Source of the DNA: a virus
Reading direction: 5' to 3' (one strand)
Length of the DNA stretch: 32,247 nucleotides
Virus record (IMG/VR): IMGVR_UViG_3300029260_000321
Span: 1 to 32,247 of that record
In this document: positions 4,338 to 22,944 of the stretch, in pieces
Layout: every line of letters starts with the position of its first letter
How positions within the stretch are numbered: the stretch's first letter is position 1
The notes under the pieces: generated by a model
What the model saw: the letters and a program-made list of their open reading frames with translations, nothing else
Database searches by the model: none
What the model was told of the DNA's origin: nothing
Translations under genes and position numbers: made by a program

Positions 4338-4607
4338 ATGGCAAATAAAAAAAGCAAAAAGCATTTAGAAGACCACACTGAGCTTCATAGAAAAGCTAAA
4401 GAGTTAAAAGATCAGGAATCATACAGAGCCAAAAAGAAAAAAAGCAAGAAATATAGACAGTATAGAAGTAACCAAGGTAGGTCTCCACAAGATATGGAAA
4501 GTAAATACCAAGGTTGCATATGGACTGCTGGATTTGGATTTGTATTAATTTTAGGAGCAGGACTTTGGGAACTAATATTATGGTTAAGTAAAGTTATAGC
4601 AGGATGA
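4338..4607 (+). CDS. Basic protein with a C-terminal membrane anchor
   Basis: The first 56 residues of this 89-residue protein are highly charged and Lys/Arg-rich (KKSKKHL, RAKKKKSKKYRQYR), consistent with nucleic-acid or phospholipid contact on the cytoplasmic side. Residues 60-87 form one hydrophobic helix containing WTAGFGFVLILGAGLW. The order, basic soluble part then C-terminal anchor, matches tail-anchored proteins. A membrane tether for DNA or a lysis accessory are both possible. It overlaps the next gene by ATGA. Confidence 0.6.
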   Translation: MANKKSKKHLEDHTELHRKAKELKDQESYRAKKKKSKKYRQYRSNQGRSPQDMESKYQGCIWTAGFGFVLILGAGLWELILWLSKVIAG

Positions 4608-4987
4608 AGGATAACTTGTTTATAAAAGCATCTATTAAAGATGGTGAGTTACATTTTCCTATAAAAGCAGTGGGTACTAGGTTTAAGAAATTCTTAAACC
4701 AATTACCTGATGACTCTAGATTAGAAATATTTATAGGAGTTGGTGGTGACAAAGGTAGTAACCCTCAACTGGCTAGAATACATGCTATGATTAGAGAAAT
4801 AGCACAAGAAATTGGCTACACGTTTGTAGAAGCCAAATTAGAAGTAAAAAGAGCCGCAGGACTATGTTTTGTAAGAAACAAACAAGAGTATTGTAAATCT
4901 TTTGGAGATTGTGATAAAGAAGAGTTAAACCTTGTAATACAAGCATGTGTAGAGATAGGAAACTTTAATAATATGAATCTAAGATAA
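4604..4987 (+). CDS. Hypothetical protein, weakly NinB-like
   Basis: The 127-residue protein has a beta-rich start (residues 5-50) with an FPIKAVGTRFKKFLNQLPDD segment. A helix LARIHAMIREIAQEIGY follows, and a C-terminal helix EELNLVIQACVEIG. The plan of a beta sheet, a helix carrying a Q/N-x-R or xxRIHAM step, then EIGYTFVEAK, recalls phage proteins grouped with the lambda NinB/Orf recombination mediators, which bind SSB-coated single-stranded DNA. The resemblance is by eye and weak, and the usual Trp-rich segment is missing. It is the last gene of the first plus-strand block; the next gene runs the other way and its stop codon abuts this one. Confidence 0.45.
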   Translation: MKDNLFIKASIKDGELHFPIKAVGTRFKKFLNQLPDDSRLEIFIGVGGDKGSNPQLARIHAMIREIAQEIGYTFVEAKLEVKRAAGLCFVRNKQEYCKSFGDCDKEELNLVIQACVEIGNFNNMNLR

Positions 4988-5416
4988 CTACTTAACAATA
5001 GTCATTTTAGCATTTATATCTTTAATTTTTTCTGATACATCCGCTCCTTTTTGAATCATTTTAGAAAGCTCTGCTAATTCTTCTTTAGTTGCAGTTGTTT
5101 CTGTTTTAATCTCTAGATTTTGTTCTACAGCCATATACTTAAGTAGCTGTATTAAAGAGAACAAGGTGTAGATATCAGATTCAAATTCATCTAATTGTAT
5201 TTTTTCTTGTTCTTCAAGAGGTAATTTAGCATTATCAACAATTTTATCAAATTTGGCAAAGATGGTAGGTAACTCAGAACCCTTATCACTATTTTGAATA
5301 ATTATCTTATTAGTAATTCTTTCTAAACCGTGTATATAAGCAGGATTAATTTTTACTCCTGTAATATCCTTGGTAAAGTCATATGTTACTCTTGAGTGTA
5401 CTTCTTGATCAGCCAT
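4988..5416 (-). CDS. Minus-strand coiled-coil hypothetical protein
   Basis: The 142-residue protein is the only minus-strand gene within the first 22 kb. It is mainly helical. Residues 60-142 contain heptad-like stretches (PLEEQEKIQLDEFESDI, ATKEELAELSKMIQKG) that suggest a coiled coil or dimer. There is no HTH, signal peptide or membrane helix. Its start lies 45 bases from the divergent UDG gene, and a TATATTTG box is correctly placed for it at 5434-5441. A singleton facing the other way often has its own timing of expression, so a role in regulation is an inference. I do not recognise the family. Confidence 0.65.
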   Translation of the reverse strand: MADQEVHSRVTYDFTKDITGVKINPAYIHGLERITNKIIIQNSDKGSELPTIFAKFDKIVDNAKLPLEEQEKIQLDEFESDIYTLFSLIQLLKYMAVEQNLEIKTETTATKEELAELSKMIQKGADVSEKIKDINAKMTIVK

Positions 5417-5433
5417 AATAAATAATTTAATAA

Positions 5434-5441
5434 CAAATATA
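5434..5441 (-). promoter_or_regulatory. Promoter -7 box for the minus-strand 142-residue gene
   Basis: Read on the minus strand, 5441-5434 is TATATTTG, an exact TAnnTTTG match, ending 18 bases before the ATG at 5416. No TTTG lies at the ideal distance upstream, so only the -7 half is convincing. The divergent UDG gene begins 20 bases away. Confidence 0.45.
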
Positions 5442-5460
5442 CTATAATTTACAACAAAAA

Positions 5461-6153
5461 ATGGACATAGACATTAATTTATTAAGAGATAATTTAAACA
5501 ACAAGCTGAAAGACAGCAGTTGGGACCGAATGCTGTCACCATATGTTAATGGTTTAAGCTTTGATCATATAATGAATACACTAATTGAAAATGTAGAACA
5601 AGGCAGGCGTTTTACTCCTAAATTTAAAGATGTATTTAATGGTTTTTATGAATGCCCTTATGATAATCTAAAGGTAGTTATAGTAGGACAAGATCCGTAT
5701 CCACAGTTAGGTGTAGCTGATGGTATAGCATTTAGCTGTAGTGTAAAAGGTAAAGCTGAGAAGTCTTTACAATATATACTGAAACAGACTACTGGCAAAA
5801 CAGTATATACACCTGAAGAGTGTGATTTAAGACGTTGGGCTAACCAAGGTGTACTACTTATTAATACTGCATTTACTTGTGAAGTTAATAAGATTGGTTC
5901 ACACTATGGTATATGGAAAAGCTTTACAGAACATGTCTTTGATAATATCAATAGACATAACCCAGATACAATATTTATATTGATGGGTAAGAAAGCTGAA
6001 GCATGGCAAACTTTACTTCCTAACTGTAAAATTCTTAAATGTTCTCATCCGGCTTCCGCTGCTTATAGAGGAGGTGAATGGGATTCAAATGATGTTTTTG
6101 ATAAAGCAAATGAAATATTAAATACGCAAGATAAAGCTTGTATAAACTGGTAA
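5461..6153 (+). CDS. ung: Family 1 uracil-DNA glycosylase
   Basis: The enzyme cuts uracil from DNA by hydrolysing the N-glycosidic bond. It has 230 residues, close to the normal length (E. coli Ung is 229). The water-activating loop is GQDPYPQ (76-82) with catalytic D78, followed by ADGIAFS. The beta-strand motif is LLIN (132-135). The DNA-intercalation loop is HPASAA starting at H196, where most members have HPSPLS. Two changes are notable: P81 replaces the His of GQDPYH, and the Leu of the minor-groove wedge is not obvious. The essential Asp and His are both present, so it should be active. Phages of Bacteroidota often carry UDG with nucleotide-metabolism genes; no dUTPase was seen here. 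The start at 5461 follows an A-rich leader and has no SD site. Confidence 0.92.
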   Translation: MDIDINLLRDNLNNKLKDSSWDRMLSPYVNGLSFDHIMNTLIENVEQGRRFTPKFKDVFNGFYECPYDNLKVVIVGQDPYPQLGVADGIAFSCSVKGKAEKSLQYILKQTTGKTVYTPEECDLRRWANQGVLLINTAFTCEVNKIGSHYGIWKSFTEHVFDNINRHNPDTIFILMGKKAEAWQTLLPNCKILKCSHPASAAYRGGEWDSNDVFDKANEILNTQDKACINW

Positions 6154-6189: not shown

Positions 6190-6702
6190 ATGATTGATAA
6201 TCAAAAGATTAAACAAAAAGCTCAGATAGAGCGCTTTAAGAAGAAATTCTATAGAGAACATGATATAAAACTTTATGTTTTAACTCCTGTAACATCTAAA
6301 TCTACTTTAACATTAGCAATTTATAAAGAATTGACTTTACATACTATAGTTGAAGATCATCCTAAGTATAAAAACTATGATTTTAAGACTAGAACTAGAG
6401 AACGTGATTTTATAATGTATATTCAGGTAATGAGTTTCTTAGCTTTTAATGATGGTTATTCTAAAACTTCTATCGGTAAGGCTATCTTTAGAGGTCATGC
6501 TACTATTATTAACTCTTGTAAAACAGTTAGTAATGGTATAGAAACCAAAGATAAAACTTTCTGCAAAATACTTGAAAAATTACAAAAAAAAATAGATGGA
6601 TATGTGGGAATTATTACAAAAGATATTAAAAGAAAAGATGACACCAAATCAAGCTCTGATCCTATTTGGGATCAAGCAAGGCGTTTCATCAACCAACACT
6701 AG
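6190..6702 (+). CDS. Stand-alone DnaA domain IV-like DNA-binding protein
   Basis: The 170-residue protein resembles the C-terminal origin-binding domain of DnaA. Residues 67-88 (KTRTRERDFIMYIQVMSFLA) match the helix that begins with conserved Arg residues. SKTSIGKAIF (91-100) matches the basic-loop and recognition-helix region, and GHATIINSCK (102-111) corresponds to the DnaA signature DHTTVLHACR. No Walker A or AAA+ domain is present, so it can bind DnaA-box-like DNA but not assemble as DnaA does. It could mark a phage origin, regulate transcription or compete with host DnaA. It lies directly behind the best promoter in the window and upstream of the DnaB gene. Its last 107 bases overlap the next gene out of frame. 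It could also be a Trp repressor-type HTH protein, which shares the fold. Confidence 0.65.
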   Translation: MIDNQKIKQKAQIERFKKKFYREHDIKLYVLTPVTSKSTLTLAIYKELTLHTIVEDHPKYKNYDFKTRTRERDFIMYIQVMSFLAFNDGYSKTSIGKAIFRGHATIINSCKTVSNGIETKDKTFCKILEKLQKKIDGYVGIITKDIKRKDDTKSSSDPIWDQARRFINQH

Positions 6703-7192
6703 TCAAGATGATAAAGATAAACTTAAGAAATTAGGTTATTTGGAACTGGTGGATGATAAATATATCATGACAGCAGTAGCTAAAGCATTCTGTGCTAAGC
6801 TTGATAATTATTTTATTAAAGCAAAGAAGAAAACTGATATACAATTGATGGGTAAAGACTTTGCTGATAATATAAACATCTATAGAGAGACATTTCCTAA
6901 TATAAGGTTGCCTAGCGGTAAACCTGCAAGAGTTAATGTTAAAATGCTATCAGAGTCATTCAGATGGTTCTTTGAAACATATGATTATACGTGGAAAGAT
7001 GTCATTGAGGCCTCTAAAATGTACGTTAATGAGTACAGAGATGCTGAATACCTGTATATGCAGACAAGTCAGTACTTTATATGTAAGCAAGATAAACATA
7101 GGGTTAAGCACTCTACATTAGCGGACTATTGTGATATGATTAGAGATGGTATAGATACAGAAGAGAAGAACTTTAAAGAAAAAGTAGTATAA
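6596..7192 (+). CDS. Possible winged-helix replication accessory protein (helicase loader candidate)
   Basis: The 198-residue protein starts with a winged-helix-like segment, MTPNQALILFGIKQGVSST, then KLKKLGYLELVDDKY. A helical region rich in aromatic residues follows (SFRWFFETYDYTWKDVIEASKMYV). Its position, stop overlapping the DnaB start by one base, is where helicase loaders often sit. That placement is the main reason for the proposed role, since no P-loop or known loader motif is visible. The start at 6596 overlaps the previous gene by 107 bases; starts at 6602 or 6638 would shorten the overlap but not remove it. The codon composition gives no sign of a frameshift joining the two genes. 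Confidence 0.6.
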   Translation: MDMWELLQKILKEKMTPNQALILFGIKQGVSSTNTSQDDKDKLKKLGYLELVDDKYIMTAVAKAFCAKLDNYFIKAKKKTDIQLMGKDFADNINIYRETFPNIRLPSGKPARVNVKMLSESFRWFFETYDYTWKDVIEASKMYVNEYRDAEYLYMQTSQYFICKQDKHRVKHSTLADYCDMIRDGIDTEEKNFKEKVV

Positions 7193-8148
7193 TGGCTAAA
7201 ACAAATAAATCGTGGGTAGGACAACATGCTGCATTTAGTGAAGCATTAAAATATATGAATGCTAGGCAGAAAGGTGAGGAGAAATCTATATACACACCTT
7301 GGCCTAAATTTAATGATGCTGCTACCGATGGTTTAGAATGGAATACTCTAACTGTAATTGGTGGTAGGCCTGGTTCAGGTAAAACATTAATAAAAGATCA
7401 AATAATAAGAGAATCATTTGCACTTAATCCTCATGATAAGTTTAGAGTCTTAGAATTTCAGTTTGAGATGGTTGGTAGAACATCAGCTATTAGAGAATTT
7501 AGTTCTATGACTGGTAAGACTTATAAAGAGTTGTGTAGTGCAGGTAGTACTTTACAGCCTGATGTGTTAAATAAGTGTTTAATGTATGCTAGGGAAAGAG
7601 TTAAAAACCCTGTGGATATAATTAGCACACCTTTAACTGTTAATCAGATGCGTGAGCAAGTTGATATGTATATGACATTACATAAAGGTGCAAAGACAAT
7701 AATAACTTTAGATCATACTATGCTTGTAAAGAGAGCACCCTATCAGAACAACACATTAGATATGATGTTTGAGCTAGGTGAATTCTTTACACAATGTAAG
7801 AGAGATTATCCTTGTCTATTTATTTCATTATCACAACTTAACAGGAACATAGATAGCCCAGATAGAGCTATTGATGGTAAGTATGGTAACTATATATTAG
7901 AGTCAGATATCTTTGGTTCAGATGCTATGTTACAGCATGCGGATATGCTTATAGGTATTAACAGACCGGCTAAGCAAAAGATTAGATACTATGGTCCTGA
8001 TAGATATATTATAGAAGATGACAAAACATTAGTATTACACTTTCTTAAAGCAAGAAACGGTGATGCTAGGATGAGTTTCTTTAAAGCTAAGTTTGAGCAA
8101 ATGAAAATAGAAGAAATGCTTACACCTGCACAACAAGAAAGACGTTAA
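7192..8148 (+). CDS. DnaB-type replicative helicase (C-terminal RecA-like domain only)
   Basis: This is a hexameric 5'-3' helicase motor that unwinds the phage fork. Walker A is GRPGSGKT (58-65), Walker B lies in TIITLDHTML, and SLSQLNR matches the DnaB motif with the catalytic-site Gln and Arg. The C-terminal LHFLKARNGD carries the arginine-finger strand typical of DnaB and RadA. At 318 residues it lacks the DnaB N-terminal primase-interaction domain, so contact with the primase must differ or use another protein. Residues 1-50 are a short helical linker. It begins one base before the end of the preceding gene. Twinkle or a circadian KaiC-like ATPase would share the fold, but the SxSQL motif and the replication context favour DnaB. 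Confidence 0.85.
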   Translation: MAKTNKSWVGQHAAFSEALKYMNARQKGEEKSIYTPWPKFNDAATDGLEWNTLTVIGGRPGSGKTLIKDQIIRESFALNPHDKFRVLEFQFEMVGRTSAIREFSSMTGKTYKELCSAGSTLQPDVLNKCLMYARERVKNPVDIISTPLTVNQMREQVDMYMTLHKGAKTIITLDHTMLVKRAPYQNNTLDMMFELGEFFTQCKRDYPCLFISLSQLNRNIDSPDRAIDGKYGNYILESDIFGSDAMLQHADMLIGINRPAKQKIRYYGPDRYIIEDDKTLVLHFLKARNGDARMSFFKAKFEQMKIEEMLTPAQQERR

Positions 8149-8164
8149 CATTAACAATTAAAAT

Positions 8165-8707
8165 ATGGCAATATCAACTACAGAGCGCAAGAAAAGAGTC
8201 TCTGATTTAAAGACAGAGCATGATAATTACTTTCAAGTAGAAGGTAAGAAGAATGCATTATACATTCCTAAGATGGCTTACAGGCCTTCTGGTAAGGATG
8301 AACTACATGTTAGTTTCTTTCCTAGTGAATTAGAAAAGGAAGAAGATGTATATACAGAGTTTGTAAGTATAGACTATGTAAGTGAGGACCCAAAGAGAAC
8401 ATTATATCTCTTACGTTATAATCCACACTGGAAATCAGAGTATGAATTAATTACTTCTAACTCAGGATTTCAAAGACATATGATTCCTGTTAGTGAATTA
8501 AAAGTTATTAATGACGTTACTGATAGAAATAAAAGTAAGCTGTCTACAGCAGGGATGAAGAATGATGCTCATACTACAGCTAAGGCTATAACTTTATTTG
8601 ATTTAGATGATCCAGATGAAACTACAGGATCATTATTAGTAAGTAAGCTAGAAGAAATAAATCAAACATTAATAACATTAACCAAAGTAATAACTAAATA
8701 TAGATAA
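8165..8707 (+). CDS. Conserved-looking hypothetical protein of the replication operon
   Basis: I do not recognise this 180-residue protein. The first 120 residues are mixed alpha/beta with several aromatic beta strands (ELHVSFFPSEL, RTLYLLRYNPHWKSEYELI). After a linker with FDLDDPDETTG, the last 30 residues form a long amphipathic helix (LVSKLEEINQTLITLTKVI) that may oligomerise. It lies between the DnaB gene and the Sak4-like ATPase gene with gaps of 16 and 6 bases, so it is expressed with them and may be an accessory to either. No catalytic or metal motif was seen. Confidence 0.65.
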   Translation: MAISTTERKKRVSDLKTEHDNYFQVEGKKNALYIPKMAYRPSGKDELHVSFFPSELEKEEDVYTEFVSIDYVSEDPKRTLYLLRYNPHWKSEYELITSNSGFQRHMIPVSELKVINDVTDRNKSKLSTAGMKNDAHTTAKAITLFDLDDPDETTGSLLVSKLEEINQTLITLTKVITKYR

Positions 8708-10114: not shown

Positions 10115-10148
10115 AAGAGGGGATGATCTAGGTTGTCCCCTTTTTTTT
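10115..10148 (+). terminator. Intrinsic terminator after the SSB-like gene
   Basis: AGGGGA (10118-10123) pairs with TCCCCT (10136-10141) around a 12-base loop. AAG upstream extends the stem into the T-tract through A-T and G-U pairs. Eight T residues follow (10141-10148). It lies 18 bases after the SSB-like stop and before the primase ATG, so it splits the replication block into two transcription units or allows partial read-through. Confidence 0.8.
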
Positions 10149-10165
10149 ATTTAATTTTAGCCTTT

Positions 10166-11143
10166 ATGTTTAACACAAAAAATTTAGTACTAGAGGAACA
10201 AGATATACCTAGTTATTGGGTATTTCAGTATTACTTAAATTTATCTGAACCATTGACTGGTCAGGATATAAAGCTAACATCTATATTCAACCCTCTTGAG
10301 AAAACGCCAAGCTTTTGCATTTATGTAGATAAAAAGATAAGGCAATATAAGTTTAAAGACTTCTCAACAGGAAAAAATGGTAATAAGGTGGATTTAGTAA
10401 AGATGCTATTTAATATAGAATACCCGGAAGCGGCCAGGAAGATAGTAAGAGATTACAATTCACATGTAAAGACTAATGGTTTTGAAGAAATTAACTTTAA
10501 ACCGGAGGCAAAGTGGAAAGTAGACTTTATTAAAACAAGGCCTTGGAATGAGACTGATAGTAAGTATTGGTTATCATTTAGAATAGGTATGTCTATATTA
10601 GTAGAATATAACGTTAAACCTATAGAATATTATAATATAGTTAAAGTAGAAAAAGAGAATGTTGAATCACTTACTATAAAAAACAACAGTCTTTATGGAT
10701 ACTTTGACAAAGCAGGGGAAGTATCTAAGATATATCAACCTACTAGCAATAAACATAAATTTCACAAAGTAAAGCAATACCTCCAGGGTTATGATCAACT
10801 AAAGTTTGATAAACCTTATTTGGTAATATGTTCTTCTCTTAAAGATGCTCTATGCTTGAAAGGTATAGGATATAATATAGAAGTATTAGCTCCAGATAGT
10901 GAAAATACAATGATAAAAGCTTATGTAATAGAACATTTAAAGAAACGTTATAAGAAAGTGATAACTCTCTTTGATAATGATGAAGCAGGTATTAAGGCCG
11001 TTAATAAATATGCAGAAGTATATAATATTAATGGATTTGTACCAACTATATGCAAAGACGTATCAGATGCCATGAAGTTACATGGATTTGATAAAGTACA
11101 TGCTATGCTAAAACCATTACTCAAGGAAACCTTAAATAAATAA
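10166..11143 (+). CDS. DnaG-like primase with zinc-less N-terminus and atypical TOPRIM
   Basis: The 325-residue primase makes RNA primers for the fork. The N-terminal part keeps the EKTPSF turn (46-50) and the YKFKDFSTG strand of the DnaG zinc domain but has none of its zinc-binding Cys/His residues; C51 is the only Cys there. The TOPRIM core follows: LVICSSLKDAL (219-229), APDSEN (243-248), LFDNDEAG (268-275) and KDVSDA (297-302). The usual catalytic Glu of the first TOPRIM motif is replaced by Ser-Ser, and E245 in the next strand may be the substitute. I chose ATG 10166; a TTG at 10133 in the same frame lies inside the terminator and is unlikely. The RusA-like gene follows after two bases. 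Confidence 0.8.
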   Translation: MFNTKNLVLEEQDIPSYWVFQYYLNLSEPLTGQDIKLTSIFNPLEKTPSFCIYVDKKIRQYKFKDFSTGKNGNKVDLVKMLFNIEYPEAARKIVRDYNSHVKTNGFEEINFKPEAKWKVDFIKTRPWNETDSKYWLSFRIGMSILVEYNVKPIEYYNIVKVEKENVESLTIKNNSLYGYFDKAGEVSKIYQPTSNKHKFHKVKQYLQGYDQLKFDKPYLVICSSLKDALCLKGIGYNIEVLAPDSENTMIKAYVIEHLKKRYKKVITLFDNDEAGIKAVNKYAEVYNINGFVPTICKDVSDAMKLHGFDKVHAMLKPLLKETLNK

Positions 11144-11145
11144 AT

Positions 11146-11529
11146 ATGAGATGGTTTATACCAGGGTCCGTACCCAGTTCAAAAAACGGAAGACGCTGGA
11201 CAGGTAAATACTTTATAGCTAGTAAAGCTGTAATGAACTATAGAAAAGTAGCCAAAGACTATTATGCTAAGTATGCAGATGAGTTTAAAGCTGAGCTAGC
11301 TAAACATTCATTGCCAGCAAAAATATCTTTTGAGTTTATCAGAGGTAGCCGTCATAAGTTTGACTATATAAATCCTGCACAGACTGTGCAAGATGATATG
11401 GTTAAAGCAGGATGGATTGAAGATGATAATGCAGAATTTATTCTACCTGTCTTTGATAAATATAGTTATGATAAGTCTAAACCAGGTGTTTGGATAGAAA
11501 TATTACCAGATGATAAAGATAACAATTGA
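11146..11529 (+). CDS. RusA-like Holliday-junction resolvase
   Basis: The 127-residue protein matches the small RusA nuclease fold. It opens with IPGSVPSSKN, the strand-turn seen at the start of RusA proteins. The acidic active-site series follows: FDYINPAQ (D73, N76), VQDDMVKAGW (D83, D84) and IEDDNA (D93, D94). In RusA, three aspartates bind magnesium and nick four-way junctions symmetrically. Here D73, D83 and D93 or D94 are the likely equivalents. The basic surface expected for junction binding is present (RGSRHK). It would resolve recombination or replication intermediates before packaging. The next gene overlaps its last 20 bases. Confidence 0.75.
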   Translation: MRWFIPGSVPSSKNGRRWTGKYFIASKAVMNYRKVAKDYYAKYADEFKAELAKHSLPAKISFEFIRGSRHKFDYINPAQTVQDDMVKAGWIEDDNAEFILPVFDKYSYDKSKPGVWIEILPDDKDNN

Positions 11530-11797
11530 TGATTTCTTTTCTATAGTTAGTTTATTAAATGGTTCTAATGAAGATTATCAGATTGCAGTATCTAATTTAG
11601 AGAATCTTAAGTTTAAAGATGAAAAGATTATAAACTTATTATTTACCAAAGCTCTGTTTCTAGATAAAAGAACAAGGTTTGTAAAGTCTAATAGAAATGA
11701 TCCTATGTTAATAGGTAGGAATCTTTTTAATCATATCAAAGCTAACGGCAATAATAAATTATATAAACAAATACTTTATAGAATAATGAATACGTAA
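11510..11797 (+). CDS. Small helical hypothetical protein
   Basis: The 95-residue protein is predicted mostly helical and starts inside the RusA-like gene. A central segment, FLDKRTRFVKSNRNDP, is basic, and the rest alternates hydrophobic and acidic residues. No cysteines, membrane helix or recognised motif are present. Its stop lies one base before the start of the VWA-type gene, so it may be translated together with that module, but it resembles none of its neighbours. Function is unknown. Confidence 0.55.
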   Translation: MIKITIDDFFSIVSLLNGSNEDYQIAVSNLENLKFKDEKIINLLFTKALFLDKRTRFVKSNRNDPMLIGRNLFNHIKANGNNKLYKQILYRIMNT

Positions 11798-11798
11798 A

Positions 11799-12965
11799 AT
11801 GATGAATAACATACAGGATTTAGTTGCTAAAACAACTAAAGAATTAATTTTAACAGAGCCTTTTTATGGGCTCTTTTTAATTGGTATCAATAAGAAGTTT
11901 ACAGATCAAATTCCTACAGCAGGAGTTAGTAAGCACGGTATTGGTATGCAATTGACTATAAACCCTGAGTTTTATATAAACTTAAGTAATCCTCACCGGA
12001 TTGGTTTAATTAAACATGAACTATTGCACATAGCATTTGGTCATTTGTTAATGAGAGATCTATATACTAATCATAAGCTGTTTAATATTGCTGCTGATTT
12101 AGAGATTAACCAGTACATACTGGAAAGTAACCTGCCAGATGGCGGGCTATTACTTAGCTCATTTCCAGAATTAAATCTTCCTAGAAAAGCAGGGACAAAA
12201 GTTTATTACAATCTTTTAGAACAAGCTGAAGAAGATGGTACTGCTCCCTCATTAGATAGTCTTATGGATAAGATGGATGGAGAATCAGAGTATTGCCATG
12301 AAACATGGAATGAATTTGATGATTTATCTGAACCAGATAAAAAACTGATGAGTAAGCAAGTTGATCATCAGCTAAAACAGTCTGCTGAAACTACAATTAA
12401 AAAAAGTGGAAGCATACCTGGTGAATTTAAAGATATAATTGATAGGTTATTCCATATAGAACCGGCTAAGTTTGATTGGAAAGGATATTTGAAAAGGTTT
12501 GTTGGTAATTCTAGTATAGTATATACTAAAAAGCTAAGGCGTAAATACAATAAACGTTATTCAGCTAGTCCCGGCTTAAAGATTAAATTTAAAAATCACA
12601 TTCTTGTTGGTGTAGATACCAGTGGATCTGTAAATAATGATGAGCTAAAAGAATTCTTTAATGAATTAGCACACATGACTAAAACAGGCCATAAGATATC
12701 AGTTGCACAATGTGATACAAGATTAAGAAGTGTAACAGAATTTAATCCAAAGCAGGATTGGGAAATACATGGTCGTGGTGGGACATCATTCCAACCAGTT
12801 ATTGACCACTACAATGAAAAGAAAGGGTCATACACGGCACTTATATATTTAACAGATGGTGAAGCATATGCACCTGATGACTGCCCAAAGAATACCTTAT
12901 GGTGTTTAAGTAGTATATCAGAGATGAATGATGAGTTACCAGGACAAGTAATAAAATTAAACTAA
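11799..12965 (+). CDS. VWA-domain metallopeptidase-like protein (DUF2201 type)
   Basis: The 388-residue protein has two domains. The N-terminal one carries the zinc-peptidase motif HELLH (73-77) followed by FGH (H82) and NIAADLEIN (96-104), which supplies a possible third ligand. The C-terminal one is a von Willebrand A domain with a MIDAS site: DTSGS (273-277), then RGGTSF with the MIDAS Thr, then YLTDGEA with the final Asp. This is the DUF2201 layout, usually encoded next to a MoxR-type AAA+ ATPase as here (4-base gap to the next start). MoxR-VWA pairs act as chaperones that remodel or insert metals into protein complexes. The target in a phage is unknown. Two starts, 11799 and 11802, are in frame. 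Confidence 0.8.
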   Translation: MMNNIQDLVAKTTKELILTEPFYGLFLIGINKKFTDQIPTAGVSKHGIGMQLTINPEFYINLSNPHRIGLIKHELLHIAFGHLLMRDLYTNHKLFNIAADLEINQYILESNLPDGGLLLSSFPELNLPRKAGTKVYYNLLEQAEEDGTAPSLDSLMDKMDGESEYCHETWNEFDDLSEPDKKLMSKQVDHQLKQSAETTIKKSGSIPGEFKDIIDRLFHIEPAKFDWKGYLKRFVGNSSIVYTKKLRRKYNKRYSASPGLKIKFKNHILVGVDTSGSVNNDELKEFFNELAHMTKTGHKISVAQCDTRLRSVTEFNPKQDWEIHGRGGTSFQPVIDHYNEKKGSYTALIYLTDGEAYAPDDCPKNTLWCLSSISEMNDELPGQVIKLN

Positions 12966-12969
12966 GAAG

Positions 12970-14244
12970 ATGGCACAAGTAAATTTAAATGTAACAGAAT
13001 TAAAAGGATTTGTAAATCATATAATTACAAACAACAGATACCTGCAGGCTAATAATAAAAGCCCTGTATCTATAGAAGTAGTAGGTGAATCAGGAATTGG
13101 TAAAACTTCAACTATAGTAGAATTAGCTGAAGAAAACAAATTAAAATTTGTTAAACTAAACCTTGCACAGATAGAAGAGTTAGGTGACCTAGTAGGTTTT
13201 CCTGTAAGACAATTCCAAATGTATAAGGAAAAGAAAGTAAATGCCCCTAAACCAGTTAATGATCTAAACTATACTGCAGCACAAAGATCTGCCGCTTCAG
13301 CAGATTTAGCAAAGATGCCTACAACACTAACTAAAAAAGTTGGTATGTGGGTAGATGAGTTAGCAGTGCAAGAGTATTTAAAGAATGGATACAAAATGAC
13401 AGGTAAAAATAGAATGTCTTATTGTGCTCCTGAATGGATAGCAGATGCTAAAGAAGGCGGTATCCTATTATTAGATGACTGGAATAGAGCTGACACAAGA
13501 TTTATTCAAGCAGTCATGGAATTAATAGATAGACAAACTTATATTTCTTGGACATTACCAAAAGACTGGCACATTATGCTAACAGCAAACCCTGATAACG
13601 GTGACTATATGGTTAACTCTGTGGATTCTGCACAGAAAACTAGATATGTGACCGCAAACCTCAAGTTTGATGTTAATGTTTGGGCCGAATGGGCAGAAAG
13701 TGCAGGGATTGATACTAGATGTATTAACTTCCTGTTACTTCACCCTGAGCTTGTAACTCAAGAAACAAATGCAAGATCAATTACAACATTCTTTAATTCA
13801 ATATCAAGTTTTGATAATTTTGAAGATAACTTATCATTAATACAAATGATTGGTGAAGGTTCAGTTGGAGATGCGTTTGCTTCTATGTTTACTACGTTTA
13901 TTAATAACAAACTAGATAAGCTAGTAACACCTAAAGACTTATTGACTCATGAAAATGAATCATATATCTTAGGAGAGTTACGTAGTTGTATTGGACAGGA
14001 TGATTCATACCGTGCAGATATTGCATCTACACTTGCTACACGTTTAGCTAACTTTTCTGTTGTTTATTCAAAAGAAAACACAGTTAGCCAAAAAATTACT
14101 GATAGACTAATAAGCCTATGTACTAAAGATTATTTTACTAATGATCTTAAGTATCTAGTTGTGCGTACAATCTTTAACGGTAATAAGCAAAAGTTTAATA
14201 AGATGATGATGAATCCATTAATAATTAAAATGACAATGAAATAA
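12970..14244 (+). CDS. MoxR-like AAA+ ATPase
   Basis: The 424-residue protein has Walker A GESGIGKT (39-46). Walker B is ILLLDDWNRAD (165-175), where MoxR proteins usually have DExNRA, and sensor 1 is LTANP near residue 212. An insert of about 75 residues between Walker A and B (QMYKEKKVNAPKP onward) is larger than in typical MoxR. The Walker B second acidic residue is Asp instead of Glu, which may slow hydrolysis. The C-terminal lid is helical. It is encoded directly after the VWA metallopeptidase-like protein, its expected partner, and 1 base before a third large gene. MoxR-type ATPases act with VWA proteins to remodel bound partners. A DNA-translocating role is not suggested by the sequence. 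Confidence 0.82.
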   Translation: MAQVNLNVTELKGFVNHIITNNRYLQANNKSPVSIEVVGESGIGKTSTIVELAEENKLKFVKLNLAQIEELGDLVGFPVRQFQMYKEKKVNAPKPVNDLNYTAAQRSAASADLAKMPTTLTKKVGMWVDELAVQEYLKNGYKMTGKNRMSYCAPEWIADAKEGGILLLDDWNRADTRFIQAVMELIDRQTYISWTLPKDWHIMLTANPDNGDYMVNSVDSAQKTRYVTANLKFDVNVWAEWAESAGIDTRCINFLLLHPELVTQETNARSITTFFNSISSFDNFEDNLSLIQMIGEGSVGDAFASMFTTFINNKLDKLVTPKDLLTHENESYILGELRSCIGQDDSYRADIASTLATRLANFSVVYSKENTVSQKITDRLISLCTKDYFTNDLKYLVVRTIFNGNKQKFNKMMMNPLIIKMTMK

Positions 14245-14245
14245 A

Positions 14246-15292
14246 ATGGCAAAAAAATCAGTATATCAACATTTTGATATTGCTGCACTAAATTACTTTG
14301 ACCTAGCAGCATGTCCTAAAGTAGGGCATGTTGTAGGCCAGGTAATAGAAGACGTGTTAGTAACTCAAGATAAAACTACATATGAAAAAATAGAAACTAT
14401 ATTAACTACAGCTACTGAATCAGGGACAACTTTTTCAAATAAAAAGAAAGCTTTTATTCTTCCTAGATGTAGTGTTTCTCAAGACAGACTTAAAGCTGCC
14501 TTAAAAGAACACGGCATTACAGTAACTAATGACTATACTCTAGCTGATTTAATAGTAGGGCATCAAGATATATCTGACAGATGTCAAAATGGTGGAAATA
14601 TATTGACAACTTTAATGATGGCTAAACTATGGAATTATGAAACTACTAGTGGAGCATCTAAAGTATGTGACATGTCTAGTCTTATTAAATCATATGGTGG
14701 TAATGTTTTAATAACAGCAAAAATTACAGAAAAGATACGTTATTATGATTTAGATGTAGAAAGCAGTCTTTATGATGAGTGGATGCTAACAGGTTTGGCT
14801 ATAAATTTAGCTCACCTAATAGATACTACAGATGATCTAGGTGTTATTGATGCTAATACAGTATTACATAGCTCTGCTAATAAGATGATTATGGATGAGC
14901 AGTTGTTACTTGATTTAGTTACACAGTTTCGTTCATACAATCAAGAAGACTTAGATATTGCAGCTAAGCTAATACCTTGTATAGATTATACTACAAACTA
15001 TCATTTGTTATGGAAGTTTGCTCAAGAATGTGACACCAACCTCTATAAATTTAATAGAGAAAAAGATGTTCAACACTGGCTTAAAGAATCTAAGTTTAAT
15101 CAGTTTAGTAGGAAATCAGCTCAGGATATGATTCTTTGGTTAGAAAAAGAGGAAGAGCTTAATAGAATATCCTTTAAATATTTAGAGCCTATTGTTAGAC
15201 AAGAGATTAGAATAAGCAATAGAGATCTTTATACATTTAAAGTTGCTGTAAAAAAAGAATATCAACAATACTTAAAAGATACAAAAGAATGA
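14246..15292 (+). CDS. Uncharacterised protein 1 of the MoxR-VWA module, possibly BRCT-like
   Basis: The 348-residue protein has no family I recognise. Around residues 70-110 it reads LPRCSVSQDRL, then HGITVTNDYTLADLIVGHQD, a beta-alpha-beta pattern ending in an ADxIV strand that recalls BRCT domains. Around residues 230-265 a helical repeat-like segment contains FRSYNQEDLDIAAKLI. Both features also appear in the next gene in the same order, so the two are probably paralogues with low identity. It starts one base after the MoxR-type gene and overlaps the next gene by four bases, so all four are probably co-translated. A substrate adaptor for the ATPase-VWA pair is an inference. The possible BRCT link needs a profile search. 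Confidence 0.6.
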   Translation: MAKKSVYQHFDIAALNYFDLAACPKVGHVVGQVIEDVLVTQDKTTYEKIETILTTATESGTTFSNKKKAFILPRCSVSQDRLKAALKEHGITVTNDYTLADLIVGHQDISDRCQNGGNILTTLMMAKLWNYETTSGASKVCDMSSLIKSYGGNVLITAKITEKIRYYDLDVESSLYDEWMLTGLAINLAHLIDTTDDLGVIDANTVLHSSANKMIMDEQLLLDLVTQFRSYNQEDLDIAAKLIPCIDYTTNYHLLWKFAQECDTNLYKFNREKDVQHWLKESKFNQFSRKSAQDMILWLEKEEELNRISFKYLEPIVRQEIRISNRDLYTFKVAVKKEYQQYLKDTKE

Positions 15293-16518
15293 AAAAAAGA
15301 TATGATATTAATATAATTGTAAATGATGATACTGTAGTAGAAGGACAACTTACGGGAGATGCATTTAAGCATGAGTATATAGGACATTGGATGTGCTCTA
15401 CTGATAATTATGGTATGAATGAATCAGAAAGAAAAAACTTAAATATAGATTTTACACCTCCTGAAAACTTTACTGTACAAGATAAAACCTTATATAGATT
15501 TCCTAAGCTAGATTTACCTAGACAAAAGGTAGATCTATTAAAAGATAAATATAATTGTAAAGTTATAAGAGATATTAATAAAGCTGATATACATATTGTA
15601 TCAGATCAATTATTTGATAACTTATTTGAGTTTGAATGGAATGCTGCTAAGCCATTTGCAAAATACTTTAGTTTTGTAACTGAATTAAAAGCAAAGGGTT
15701 TATTATCTCAATGTGCATTAGAGAAGAATAGAGAAATGATAGCTATTTTAGGTACAGACTCTATGGTTAAAGTTAAAATGCCTTATCAATATAGTCATAA
15801 TAATAACTATCATGGTGGTTTTAGCGCTCACACTAGCAGTTTTAAAGATGATATACAAGATGTTTTAAATTTAAAAATGGAAAGTGCTGTTCATTCAGGT
15901 ACCAGAGATATACTTCTTTATGATAAAAATTTAATCAGCTATCAAAATGTTTTAAATTCTAGTGCTGTGATTGTTTATGATGTAGATGTTATTAATATAA
16001 TTGATAATGAATTAGCTATACTTAATAACTCTGAGCTTAAAAACATACACTCTATGGTAACAAGCAATGATAGAGAAAACAGGACACTTGCGCTAGAAAT
16101 GCTTGCTAACTGTAATATTGATAAATCTTTTGATGTTGTATCTAATCTGTTTTATTGGCAATATGATTGGTTAAAAGACACAAGTAACTGGAACACTGTA
16201 AATGTTAAAGCTTTAAGAAAAAGGCTTAAAAAGTATCAAGGTGGAGTAAATCTTTCAATGATATATTCCTATGACAATTATATAAAAAATTTAATTAAAG
16301 ATAAAAAATTAACTAAATTTGCTTTAGATAATACTAGAGAAAGATTATATAAAAACGTTCTACGTGATATAGGTGGTAATAATGCTAATGTTTTCTCTAT
16401 TAGCTTGGATAATGTTAAATTAAAGGATAACTTAACTGATAACCTAATTAAAGAAAAAGCAGATGAGTATGAAGTCAGATACAAAGAAAGTAATTACAGC
16501 GACAATATTACTGTATAA
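15289..16518 (+). CDS. Uncharacterised protein 2 of the MoxR-VWA module, related to its neighbour
   Basis: The 409-residue protein shares domain order with the preceding gene product. A segment at about residues 70-105 (FPKLDLPRQKVDLL, then CKVIRDINKADIHIVS) corresponds to its BRCT-like part. A segment near residue 255 (MVTSNDRENRTLALEMLANC) corresponds to its helical repeat. Overall identity is low. This copy has extra N-terminal and C-terminal regions, including an HxxxN-rich loop (YSHNNNYHGGF). The C-terminal part (RYKESNYSD) is charged. The start overlaps the previous stop as ATGA. Its last 50 bases overlap a small frame that starts at 16469. Function is unknown; I infer only that it acts with the MoxR-VWA pair. 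Confidence 0.6.
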   Translation: MKKRYDINIIVNDDTVVEGQLTGDAFKHEYIGHWMCSTDNYGMNESERKNLNIDFTPPENFTVQDKTLYRFPKLDLPRQKVDLLKDKYNCKVIRDINKADIHIVSDQLFDNLFEFEWNAAKPFAKYFSFVTELKAKGLLSQCALEKNREMIAILGTDSMVKVKMPYQYSHNNNYHGGFSAHTSSFKDDIQDVLNLKMESAVHSGTRDILLYDKNLISYQNVLNSSAVIVYDVDVINIIDNELAILNNSELKNIHSMVTSNDRENRTLALEMLANCNIDKSFDVVSNLFYWQYDWLKDTSNWNTVNVKALRKRLKKYQGGVNLSMIYSYDNYIKNLIKDKKLTKFALDNTRERLYKNVLRDIGGNNANVFSISLDNVKLKDNLTDNLIKEKADEYEVRYKESNYSDNITV

Positions 16519-16602: not shown

Positions 16603-17589
16603 ATGATTAGAAACAAAGAAAAAGAAGATGTGTTTTATGCAAAGAAAGATTTTTGCTTTAGCTATTCTTCTTTAAACAAATTATTATTTTCACCATCCTT
16701 ATTTTATAAGGAGTATATATTATTTGATCGTGAGGTTAGAACAGATAAACATTTAGTAGAAGGGAAACTTGTACACTGTTTATTATTTGAACCTGAAAAC
16801 GTTACAGAAAAGTTTAATGTTGTACCAGGTAAAGCACCTAGTGATAACATTAGAAAAGTAATGAAAGATATGTCTATTCATACTAATGCAGAAACATTAG
16901 ATCTATGTGAGATACAGGCCTTAGAATCATTAAAAACTTTAAACCTTTTCCAGTCTCTTAAAACAGATGAACAAAGACTAAAGAAAGTTATTACTGAGGA
17001 TAATGCACCTTATTGGAAGTTCTTATCTAATACTAATGTAGATGTAGTAGATCAAGATACTTTATTAAAGTGTAAAGAGAAAGTAGAAGCTATAAAAGAG
17101 AACAAAGATGTAGTTGCATTATTTGAGCAACAGCAAAGTGATTTTGAATTAGATCCTATAGAGACACATGCAGAACGTTATCTAAGGTCTGAGTTAAAAG
17201 ACAAAGGTTTTGGTCTACATGGTTATATAGATTTCTATAAGATAGATCATGATAAGTTTGAGGTAACAATTTGTGACCTTAAAACTACAGGTAAAACTAT
17301 TTCTGATTTTAAAGAAACAGTTGACTTTTATAACTATTGGTTGCAAGCTGCTATCTATATGAAATTAGTTTATGACACACTTGGAGAAAATGCTGAGAAA
17401 TATACTATAACATTTAAATTTGTAGTAATTGATACATACAAACAAGTATATGTATTTGATGTTACTCCGGAGACTATGGCAGGTTGGGTATCTGGCCTAG
17501 AGGGTGTTATAAAAGTTGGTGCTCACCATTATGATAAAAGAAATTATCAATTACCCTATGATTTCTTAACAGGAAATATTAAATTGTAG
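16603..17589 (+). CDS. PD-(D/E)XK exonuclease (RecB/Cas4/Exo VIII-like)
   Basis: The 328-residue nuclease carries the RecB-family signature. GKLVHCLLF provides the conserved H58. GYIDFY provides D210, and ICDLKTT supplies the D225-L-K227 metal and catalytic pair. The helix motif QAAIYMK starts at Q248. This is the H-D-(D/E)xK-QxxxY order of the Cas4, AddB and Exo VIII nucleases, and the length fits a stand-alone exonuclease. In phages such enzymes process DNA ends for annealing or degrade host DNA. With the Sak4-like ATPase and SSB-like protein encoded upstream, it would complete a two-component recombination set. The start at 16603 follows an A-rich leader. Confidence 0.82.
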   Translation: MIRNKEKEDVFYAKKDFCFSYSSLNKLLFSPSLFYKEYILFDREVRTDKHLVEGKLVHCLLFEPENVTEKFNVVPGKAPSDNIRKVMKDMSIHTNAETLDLCEIQALESLKTLNLFQSLKTDEQRLKKVITEDNAPYWKFLSNTNVDVVDQDTLLKCKEKVEAIKENKDVVALFEQQQSDFELDPIETHAERYLRSELKDKGFGLHGYIDFYKIDHDKFEVTICDLKTTGKTISDFKETVDFYNYWLQAAIYMKLVYDTLGENAEKYTITFKFVVIDTYKQVYVFDVTPETMAGWVSGLEGVIKVGAHHYDKRNYQLPYDFLTGNIKL

Positions 17590-19020: not shown

Positions 19021-19150
19021 TTGTCTACTTACTGCTGCTTCTGCATTAGGAATAACATACAAAACTTTATATAACTATAGGAAAAAACTGGGTTTGGACA
19101 TTGGTACAAATGGTCATACACATAATAGAACTAAAAAGGATAAGGAATGA
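18962..19150 (+). CDS. Small Fis-type helix-turn-helix protein
   Basis: The 62-residue protein is mostly one HTH of the Fis/NtrC C-terminal type. The core is LTAASALGITYKTLYNYRKK (about 23-42), where the AAxxLGI helix, the turn and the recognition helix with TLYNY fit well. Flanking residues are basic, and the tail is polar (GTNGHTHNRTKKDKE). It overlaps the gene before it by 59 bases and the polymerase start by four. Such proteins bend DNA or regulate transcription as dimers. It could autoregulate the polymerase operon, which is an inference from position. Confidence 0.65.
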   Translation: METIEEMKVRVMKIAIKRHSCLLTAASALGITYKTLYNYRKKLGLDIGTNGHTHNRTKKDKE

Positions 19151-21138
19151 GACATTGGGTAATGGACTATGAAACATTGGCTAATTGCTTTACAGGTGTA
19201 TTTGAACATTATAAGACTCAGGAGACTGAGATCTTTGTTATTCATGACCTGCAAAATGATTTACCAAAGTTTATTAGTTTCTTAGAAAACAATATAAAAA
19301 ATAAAGAGTGGCACATATCCTATAATGGATTAGCATTTGATGCACAGGTTACTCACTATATATTAGATAATTATTTTCTATGGAAAAACCTAAAAGGATG
19401 TGAAATAGCAAAGATTATCTATAAGTATGCTCAACGTTGTATAACTAAATCTAATAATAAAGACTTTAGTGACTACCCGGCTTGGAAAATGAAGATGGGT
19501 CAAATAGATATCTTTAAAATGCATCACTGGGATAATGCAGCTAAACGCTCTAGTCTTAAATGGATTCAGTTTAGTATGGATTGGCAGAATATTATTGATA
19601 TGCCTATTCATCATGAAACTTTAATCAGCACGCAAGAAGAAGTAGATACTATATTAGAATATTGTATTAATGATGTAAAGTCTACTAAAGAAATCTATAA
19701 CAGATCTCATTCACAGGTAAAGCTAAGAAAAGAACTTACTAAAGAATATGGTATAAATTTATATAGCGCCTCTGAGCCACGGATTAGTAAAGAAATATTT
19801 GGTTATTTTTTAACTAAGAAGTTGGGTATTCCAAAAAGGGAATTAAAACAGATGAGGACTTATAGAGAAACAATTAAAGTTTCTGATATTATATTACCAT
19901 ATATATCGTTTACATCTCTTGAGTTTAATGTATTACTTGACAGGTTTAAATCATTAGAAGTTAATGCATATAACCTTAAAGGTAGCTTTAAGTATGCTCT
20001 TGAATATAAAAATGTTAAAACACATTTTGGTTTAGGTGGTGTGCATGGTGCTGCTAGCAAAGGAGTATATGAACCGGATGATGATATGATGATTATGTCT
20101 TCAGATGTTACTAGTTTTTATCCTAATCTTGCTATAAAGAATCAATGGTCACCAGGTCACTTCCCTAAAGAAGAGTTTTGTGATCAGTATGAATGGTTCT
20201 TTGAAGAGCGTAAGAAGATCCCTAAGAGCAATCCAATGAACTATGTATATAAGATTATACTTAACTCAACGTTTGGCCTTAGTAATGATGATAAGAGCTT
20301 CTTCTATGATCCAGAACTATGTATGAAAATTACAATCAACGGTCAACTATCTCTAATGATGCTTTATGAGCAGATTATGGAAAGAATACCGGGTGCTGTA
20401 GCTTTATTACAAAATACAGATGGTGTAGAAACAATTATACCTAAAGCATTTTATAATGAGTATATAGCTATTTGTGAAGAGTGGGAAGTCAAAACAAATC
20501 TTAACTTAGAACATGATCAATATCAAAAACTAATTTTAGGTGATGTAAATAATTACATTGGTATAAATGATTGGGTTGATGTAGATATTACTAAGTGGAG
20601 AGAAATTAAAGAGAAACAACCTCACTATCTATTTAAGGTAGAGAATGATAAGTTTAGCTTTGCACCTGTTAAGTTGAAAGGTCGCTTTGATTTTCATGAT
20701 TTACAACTACATAAAAACAAATCTAAATTAGTTATACCAAAGGCAATCTATCATTACTTTGTAAATAATACTCTTCCTGAAGAATATTTAGAAACAAATA
20801 AGAATATACTTGATTATTGTATTGGTAGTAAGTCTAAAGGAGATTGGAAACAAGTAGCCAGGAAAGTTAAAGATGGTGTTTTTCATGAAGAAGATTTGCA
20901 AAAAATCAATAGGTATTATATATCTAAAGATGGTGCAAAAATTGTTAAGGTTAATAAAACTGATAATAGAGAAATACAATTAGAAGCTGGGCGTTGGCTG
21001 CAGGAAGTATTTAATGATATTAAAATTCAACCAAAGTGGGAAAGTTATAATATTGATAAGAAATATTACTTAGATGCAATAGAGCAAGAAATAAATGGTA
21101 TAATAGATGTATCATCAAATCAATTAAAATTATTTTAA
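19147..21138 (+). CDS. Family B DNA polymerase with 3'-5' exonuclease
   Basis: The 663-residue enzyme replicates the genome. Exonuclease motifs are intact: Exo I DYE (D7, E9), Exo II YNGLAFD (N60, D65) and Exo III YCIND (Y172, D176). Polymerase motif A is SDVTSFYP (D320), with FYP in place of SLYP. Motif B is KIILNSTFG (K369, N373). Motif C is QNTDG (N423, D425), where the usual DTDS has an Asn in the first Asp position. A GLGGVHGA turn (296-303) takes the place of the YxGG motif between the exonuclease and palm domains. The length is short for the family, so palm inserts are minimal. Protein-primed polymerases can be this short, but a DnaG-like primase is encoded, so RNA priming is more likely. 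Confidence 0.88.
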   Translation: MRHWVMDYETLANCFTGVFEHYKTQETEIFVIHDLQNDLPKFISFLENNIKNKEWHISYNGLAFDAQVTHYILDNYFLWKNLKGCEIAKIIYKYAQRCITKSNNKDFSDYPAWKMKMGQIDIFKMHHWDNAAKRSSLKWIQFSMDWQNIIDMPIHHETLISTQEEVDTILEYCINDVKSTKEIYNRSHSQVKLRKELTKEYGINLYSASEPRISKEIFGYFLTKKLGIPKRELKQMRTYRETIKVSDIILPYISFTSLEFNVLLDRFKSLEVNAYNLKGSFKYALEYKNVKTHFGLGGVHGAASKGVYEPDDDMMIMSSDVTSFYPNLAIKNQWSPGHFPKEEFCDQYEWFFEERKKIPKSNPMNYVYKIILNSTFGLSNDDKSFFYDPELCMKITINGQLSLMMLYEQIMERIPGAVALLQNTDGVETIIPKAFYNEYIAICEEWEVKTNLNLEHDQYQKLILGDVNNYIGINDWVDVDITKWREIKEKQPHYLFKVENDKFSFAPVKLKGRFDFHDLQLHKNKSKLVIPKAIYHYFVNNTLPEEYLETNKNILDYCIGSKSKGDWKQVARKVKDGVFHEEDLQKINRYYISKDGAKIVKVNKTDNREIQLEAGRWLQEVFNDIKIQPKWESYNIDKKYYLDAIEQEINGIIDVSSNQLKLF

Positions 21139-22494: not shown

Positions 22495-22944
22495 TTATGT
22501 ACATAATGATGGTGGATCCATTAATGATCCTAAGTTACTAATTTGTATACTATTTTCTGCTGTTGGGTCAGTTCTATATAATTTATAAAAATTACCACCA
22601 CCGGTAAATGTAGTATTTAAAGCTTGATCAGTAAATACTGATACAGAATCTTCAATAACATCGTTTAAGAAGTAAACTGTATTAGGCTTATCAGTAGACG
22701 CACATGCTAAAGATGGGGTACCATAAGGACTACTCATAAGATATGGAGTTGGAGGAGGATTATAGTTTCTAAAGTTTAATAATTGGTTTTTACTACCTGA
22801 ATAACTTGAATCAAATTTTGCAGCTTCTGCTGCTGTAAAGCATGCAGTTAAAGATGTAGGTGTACCCGACACTGCTGCCTGTACTGTAGTTAAAGACCAA
22901 TTATTTACTGTTCCTGCTCCTATTGTATCTGGTACTGCTGCCAT
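22495..22944 (-). CDS. Tail-associated structural protein
   Basis: The 149-residue protein is rich in Ser, Thr, Ala, Asn and Gly, typical of tail or fibre parts. The first 60 residues contain LTACFTAAEAAKFDSS and the FRNYNPP step that often ends a small N-terminal anchor domain in Bacteroidota phage proteins. The rest contains a CAST motif, YFLNDVIEDSVSVFTDQ and FTGGGNFYKLY, which look like a beta-rich adhesin-type repeat module with aromatic turns. It is the last gene of the minus-strand structural cassette and its start overlaps the stop of the S74 tail-fibre gene by one base (TAATG). A fibre tip or receptor-binding accessory is likely by position. Confidence 0.65.
   Translation of the reverse strand: MAAVPDTIGAGTVNNWSLTTVQAAVSGTPTSLTACFTAAEAAKFDSSYSGSKNQLLNFRNYNPPPTPYLMSSPYGTPSLACASTDKPNTVYFLNDVIEDSVSVFTDQALNTTFTGGGNFYKLYRTDPTAENSIQISNLGSLMDPPSLCT

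Follow-up and report, generated by a model that had tools for sequence, protein, structure and literature searches.

Pairs of a MoxR-type AAA+ ATPase and a VWA protein are known to remodel complexes (PMC7159879, PMC9976466), and bacterial ternary systems built on such pairs, with VMAP, iSTAND, FtsH or beta-propeller components, act in biological conflicts (PMC7159879). In phage N4, gp24 (a putative AAA ATPase) and gp25 (a vWFA protein) are middle genes and count among the 14 core genes of N4-like phages, where no function is listed for them (PMC4193335, PMC2784036). Group 2.2 jumbo phages encode a MoxR-vWA pair in which the vWA part is fused to an N-terminal metallopeptidase, and a 2021 survey proposed a role in virion assembly (PMC7824862). 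Bacillus phage 0305phi8-36 also has a MoxR gene pair (PMC2147016). Here we analyse such a pair in a 32-kb viral record (IMG/VR record IMGVR_UViG_3300029260_000321; its 32,247 nucleotides are called the window), where the genes of the VWA protein, the MoxR ATPase and two large proteins, P3 and P4, fill positions 11799-16518, directly downstream of a short gene, p95. A preliminary description of this region expected a dedicated machine of this kind to be new. This was too strong, because the pair already belongs to the N4-like core (PMC4193335) and occurs in jumbo phages (PMC7824862). New are the family of partner proteins, its exclusive association with the pair in these data, and the viral lineage.

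Results

The preliminary description had recognised four tightly packed open reading frames in the replication block, encoding a VWA protein with HELLH and MIDAS motifs, a MoxR-type ATPase with an Asp-Asp Walker B, and two large mutually related proteins. All of this was confirmed by the results below; the four genes are separated by +4, +1 and -4 bases. The count of four was nevertheless too low, as p95 had been missed. The VWA protein matches the Pfam families DUF2201_N (putative metallopeptidase; E 2.3e-15, 57.4 bits, cut-off 23.2) and DUF2201 (VWA-like; E 2.8e-15, 57 bits, cut-off 26.4) as well as phrog_1314 (E 1.8e-62). These domains, together with HExxH and MIDAS, characterize it as a predicted metallopeptidase-VWA cochaperone of the DUF2201 type. 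Its peptidase activity is putative, being deduced from the motif. In 101 copies the two histidines and the glutamate of HELLH, the Asp, Thr and Ser of MIDAS, T329 and D353 are invariant, and slight variation in the motifs is limited to the non-ligand residue L75 and the MIDAS glycine. The label "HNH endonuclease" of phrog_1314, a name inherited by many phage records, is contradicted by the Pfam domains.

The second gene product matches phrog_1297 (E 3.6e-34) and, among PDB sequences, midasin (E 8.5e-8); AAA_5 lies just under the Pfam cut-off (19.5 vs 22 bits). None of 104 copies departs from Walker A, the Walker B LLLDD, the sensor Asn or AQKTR, and by these motifs and the phrog_1297 match the protein is assigned to the MoxR class of AAA+ ATPases.

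Both genes are interrupted at their catalytic sites in some relatives. In L097, a group I intron (4503-5575, E 4.4e-20) that encodes a GIY-YIG/NUMOD endonuclease splits MoxR beside Walker B (...LLLDDWNRA / DTRF...), and L093, L207 and L208 have a similar interruption. In L090, a group I intron (6270-7370; E 1.5e-8, under the gathering score) carrying an endonuclease-like open reading frame splits the VWA gene within HExxH (...IKHEL / ...), and the same interruption is present in L095 and L096. An Rfam search of the window gave no matches. Mobile introns insert into indispensable genes at catalytic sites, where the codons are most conserved. The positions of the introns at HExxH and Walker B therefore argue that the metallopeptidase site is important as well as the ATPase site. 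In L090 a protein of about 130 amino acids (MGRYYSGDIEGKF...) is additionally inserted between VWA and MoxR (8319-8705), with similar inserts in L004, L006, L014 and L057.

Searches of Pfam, PHROG, NCBIfam, PADLOC and PDB sequences returned no significant match for P3 or P4, and neither these two nor a divergent P4 matched any phage record by tblastn. Single P4 members match HEAT-type families weakly, and the PADLOC search yielded a weak AAA+ match and nothing stronger. Profile and structure searches gave no clear homology to unrelated enzymes. A match between the P3 profile and the primase (E 2.6e-4 in L236; by hhalign, E 0.005) covers 51-67 columns in part of the Toprim half and was put down to chance or a similar fold. 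P3 and P4 belong to one family as distant paralogues, as is evident from three results. Their profiles align with hhalign over 274 colinear columns (E 9.6e-5; in the reverse direction 0.0042 over 272), compared with E ≥0.005 over ≤51 columns for eight other genes of the block as controls. A segment of about 50 residues in the N-terminal part aligns nearly without gaps (KKxFxLPKxxVSxDRxKxALKEHxITVTNDxxxADLI in P3, KxIYRxPKLxLPRxKVDLLKEKYNxKVIRDxxKADIxVxS in P4). Finally, the AlphaFold2 models (P3: pLDDT 87.9, pTM 0.81; P4: pLDDT 84.2, pTM 0.58) have the same four proteins as their only significant matches in the BFVD structure database, at probability 1.00: A0A8S5QMV2 of CrAss-like virus ctYsL76, A0A8S5TL70 and A0A8S5TKB2 of Podoviridae ctz6O13, and A0A6J5LXR8 of an uncultured Caudovirales phage. 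These four are uncharacterised, with 9-19% identity and TM-scores of 0.3-0.45. As A0A8S5TL70 and A0A8S5TKB2 share a genome, ctz6O13 also holds two copies; the low TM-scores mean that the domain arrangement differs or that the models are imperfect.

The gene p95, which has no Pfam or PADLOC match, joins this family through a helical module. In three loci the P4 profile detected the short gene that precedes VWA, most strongly in L256 (E 1.7e-7). A profile built from p95 orthologues aligned by hhalign with P4 over 89 columns (E 2.7e-4) and, in the same module, with P3 over 37 columns (E 0.0036), compared with E ≥0.15 for eight control genes. Searched with a profile of the module, the window and two near-complete relatives each yield three genes with convincing scores and no more, namely p95, P3 and P4; a relative derived from a metagenome-assembled genome likewise has exactly three matching places. 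Since the module profiles were built from p95, P3 and P4 themselves, the informative points are that no fourth gene appeared and that the p95 match preceded the joint profile. By profile comparison, p95, P3 and P4 thus form one family of three, flanking the motor pair directly on both sides.

The N-terminal segment common to P3 and P4 shows a moderate resemblance to BRCT domains. The more specific PDB matches of the P3 model are the BRCT domains of PARP1 (probability 0.85, 0.77 and 0.72), MCPH1, RFC1 and MDC1. The two tightest superpose on about 40 residues with 1.5-2.0 rmsd (root-mean-square deviation), and the E-values, about 0.3-1, are not significant. The P4 model has the order of strands and helices found in BRCT, and among PDB sequences the shared segment scores best against the PARP1 BRCT domain (E 0.83, not significant). 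The Pfam BRCT model scores below its gathering threshold in P3 (14.3 vs 21.3 bits) and finds nothing in P4 members. We call the segment BRCT-like rather than BRCT.

The unit was then followed through viral contigs. Scans yielded 57 loci with P3, 266 contig stretches with the P3 alignment, 342 with the P4 alignment and 244 with a divergent MoxR, and about 260 loci were fetched, 186 through P3 or P4 and 76 through MoxR, with many contigs common to both sets. The order VWA-MoxR-P3-P4 is kept in both sets; exceptions are contig ends, introns or inserts that split genes, and frameshifts. Gene set and order are conserved far beyond chance. No P3 or P4 without MoxR-VWA was found in these loci, contig ends apart; the neighbourhoods of the four BFVD relatives lie outside this count. 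In pairwise comparisons of 25 representatives, mean identity is highest for MoxR (86.3%) and VWA (78.4%), which among 12 genes of the block exceed even DNA polymerase (74.8%), followed by RusA (74.7%), primase (64.0%) and P3 (59.6%). The least conserved are p95 (35.3%) and P4 (35.2%), the latter being the fastest-evolving large gene of the block.

The unit comprises at least five genes, p95 being included because it carries the helical module common to P3 and P4, and it is embedded in an operon with primase, RusA and exonuclease genes (Table 1), in line with the preliminary description, which had placed it in the replication block. Along the run primase-RusA-p95-VWA-MoxR-P3-P4-exonuclease-g192-g138 the median spacings are ≤8 bases and mostly overlaps, and the exonuclease gene abuts or overlaps P4 in 69 of 95 loci.

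Table 1 Genes, domains and motifs of the MoxR-VWA unit and its surroundings (positions in the window)
Feature	Position	Strand	Description
p95	11510..11797	+	95 aa; mostly helical module common to P3 and P4
p95 helical module	11513-11683		residues about 2-58
VWA	11799..12965	+	388 aa; zincin-like metallopeptidase and VWA domains (Pfam DUF2201_N, DUF2201; phrog_1314)
VWA HELLH	12015-12029		residues 73-77
VWA MIDAS DTSGS	12615-12629		residues 273-277; plus T329, D353
MoxR-type AAA+ ATPase	12970..14244	+	424 aa; phrog_1297, midasin PDB matches
MoxR Walker A GESGIGKT	13084-13107		
MoxR Walker B LLLDD	13465-13479		
P3	14246..15292	+	348 aa; BRCT-like segment, helical module, C-terminal helices
P3 BRCT-like segment	14435-14581		residues about 64-112
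P3 helical module	14885-15031		residues 214-262
P4	15289..16518	+	409 aa; N-terminal beta region, BRCT-like segment, helical module, C-terminal helices
P4 BRCT-like segment	15472-15693		residues about 62-135
P4 helical module	16012-16164		residues 242-292
DNA primase	10133..11143	+	Toprim; phrog_12622; same operon as the unit
RusA-like Holliday junction resolvase	11146..11529	+	20-base overlap with p95
PD-(D/E)XK exonuclease	16603..17589	+	exonuclease VIII-like; 84 bases from P4
DNA polymerase	19147..21138	+	phrog_1252; context gene
862-aa protein	22944-25532	-	C-terminal similarity to virion structural/fibre proteins; at the gene-direction switch

Near-complete relatives of the window are about 107-120 kb long. 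One of them, G002 (114.8 kb), has PHROG matches for TerL, portal and capsid, and the relatives listed for its terminase and portal are crAss-like or related phages. It also encodes a 4215-amino-acid protein (L126, 59-12706, marine contig IMGVR_UViG_3300025276_000024) with DFDID, the catalytic motif of the giant RNA polymerases of crAss-like phages. On the basis of TerL, portal and DFDID, the near-complete relatives are assigned to a Crassvirales-like lineage. The nearest portal among the matches listed is that of Leptolyngbya phage Lbo-JY46 (PP438436.1; 31% identity over 96%), which outscores the listed Bacteroidetes phages. Lbo-JY46 infects a cyanobacterium. Three lineage members (L120, WLWP01000004.1; L121, CAKZOX010000136.1; L122, CAKZOX010000053.1) were binned in metagenome-assembled genomes labelled Pseudomonadales and Campylobacteraceae, whereas the hosts of Crassvirales are described as Bacteroidetes (PMC10136315); binning is, however, weak host evidence.

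In nine named crAss-like or related genomes, Lbo-JY46 among them, profiles found no VWA protein of this family and no P3 or P4; MoxR, searched in six of the nine, gave one match of 31 positions only. As the same profiles do detect the unit in members of the lineage, it is, as far as the nine genomes show, a feature of this lineage and not of crAss-like phages at large. A literature search pairing crAss-like phages with MoxR found no paper.

Discussion

The VWA protein has relatives in 378 phage records; N4-like phages account for many of these, and jumbo phages also have them. The gp24/gp25 pair of N4-like phages (Schitoviridae) belongs to the same two families, phrog_1297 and phrog_1314, and in LIT1 adjoins helicase and DNA polymerase. 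However, the ATPase there precedes the VWA protein, no relatives of P3, P4 or p95 lie alongside, and the sequence similarity is distant. The pair of group 2.2 jumbo phages likewise combines an AAA+ ATPase with a metallopeptidase-vWA protein but differs by its proposed virion role and by the lack of a described partner family (PMC7824862). Near the pair, or a member of it, no P3 or P4 relatives were found in nine loci (S-TIM5, AR9, pVa5, MTATph1, LIT1, AD45, SRILMA, phage G and RHph_TM27A). A match in SRILMA (E 0.0012) falls in an annotated endolysin gene and was taken as chance. Two gut "Bacteriophage sp." records (MT836813.1 and MT837937.1; L139 and L140) were rejected as phage evidence, because the genes next to their bacterial-type MoxR-VWA pair (such as those of a single-strand-binding protein and a sirtuin) look bacterial chromosomal; they are probably not phage.

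Bacterial ternary systems, like the unit described here, consist of the pair plus one or more additional conserved components, but their third components are other proteins and they are host conflict systems (PMC7159879). Pfam and PADLOC found no VMAP, iSTAND, FtsH or propeller component in P3, P4 or p95, and PADLOC gave nothing beyond the weak AAA+ match. Midasin (Rea1) belongs to the same AAA+ class by the PDB sequence matches, but it is a single giant eukaryotic polypeptide that works in ribosome assembly. Its MIDAS domain pulls substrates borne by adaptors, and we know of no protease domain in it.

We tentatively propose, with slightly less than even confidence, that the five proteins form a remodelling machine equipped with dedicated adaptors, which would act on protein-DNA complexes of replication or recombination. 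MoxR is predicted to form the ATP-driven ring and the VWA protein to be its substrate-gripping cochaperone, whose zincin-like domain may cut what the protein holds. Since P3 and P4 occur only alongside the pair in every sampled related locus, dedicated partners are the most economical reading. The common helical module of p95, P3 and P4 would be the likely docking part, and the BRCT-like domain and variable regions of P3 and P4 may hold or present the target. The preliminary description had suggested that the two large proteins are adaptors or substrates of the pair; the genomic association holds, whereas the direction, adaptor or substrate, does not follow from it. Because the unit is made together with primase, RusA and exonuclease, its most likely targets would be protein-DNA complexes that arise when the phage genome is replicated or recombined; the machine would use force to pull these apart or process them. 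An analogy is midasin, whose MoxR-like ring and MIDAS domain strip adaptor-bound factors off pre-ribosomes. In a narrower version, which we consider rather doubtful, P3 and P4 would recognise replication or recombination intermediates (ends, nicks, modified proteins) through their BRCT-like segments, and MoxR-VWA would remove or cleave the bound proteins. Several points weigh against a replicative machine. The position in the operon indicates timing and coregulation, not the target; the nine named crAss-like or related phages lack the unit and still replicate; the similarity to BRCT is moderate; and published proposals for MoxR-VWA of phages and viruses favour virion assembly (PMC7824862).

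As in these proposals, made for jumbo phages and for Acidianus two-tailed virus, the pair would fold and clip structural proteins during assembly and maturation; P3, P4 and p95 would here be assembly adaptors. Peptidolytic processing was part of the proposal for the metallopeptidase-vWA/MoxR pair of group 2.2 jumbo phages (PMC7824862), and the roseophage homologues of N4 gp24/25 sit near middle-expressed structural genes (PMC4193335). We nevertheless think this unlikely for the present lineage, where the unit always lies within the replication operon, overlapping or abutting primase/RusA and exonuclease, and in G002 is far from the structural block, while crAss-like relatives with similar virion genes do without it. 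The machine could instead be turned on the host and dismantle or inactivate a host complex, such as the replisome, RNA polymerase, the nucleoid or a defence complex, with the variable P4 as the host-facing adaptor. The rapid divergence of P4 (35% mean identity vs 86% for MoxR) would be expected of such a part, and bacterial MoxR-vWA ternary systems do act in biological conflicts (PMC7159879). Relaxed constraint, however, equally fits this divergence, nothing beyond the weak AAA+ match resembles known defence or anti-defence proteins, and the operon neighbours are replication genes. We regard host takeover as improbable; of the chaperone machine for replication or takeover that had been suggested, the replicative setting stands and the takeover is unsupported.

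Less probable still is an ordinary role of P3, P4 and p95 in replication or recombination, such as binding DNA ends or single strands, independent of the MoxR-VWA pair with which they share the operon. BRCT domains often bind DNA or phosphopeptides, the operon contains further replication genes, and single P4 members match HEAT-type families weakly, all of which would suit this explanation. Strict co-occurrence in all loci and the flanking of the pair on both sides by three related genes speak against it.

Few genes conserved in all N4-like phages still lack a function, and those of MoxR-VWA pairs are among them. In a crAss-like marine lineage the same pair is the most conserved part of the replication operon and comes with a defined partner family. 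The question is thereby narrowed to testable protein pairs, namely which of p95, P3 and P4 binds the VWA protein and what they bring to it. If the narrower version of the replicative machine holds, a bacterial virus would have its own equivalent, at DNA, of the extraction performed by midasin or p97, in the form of an ATP-driven metalloprotease or unfoldase dedicated to the replisome, and this would suggest a function for the gp24/gp25 core pair of N4.

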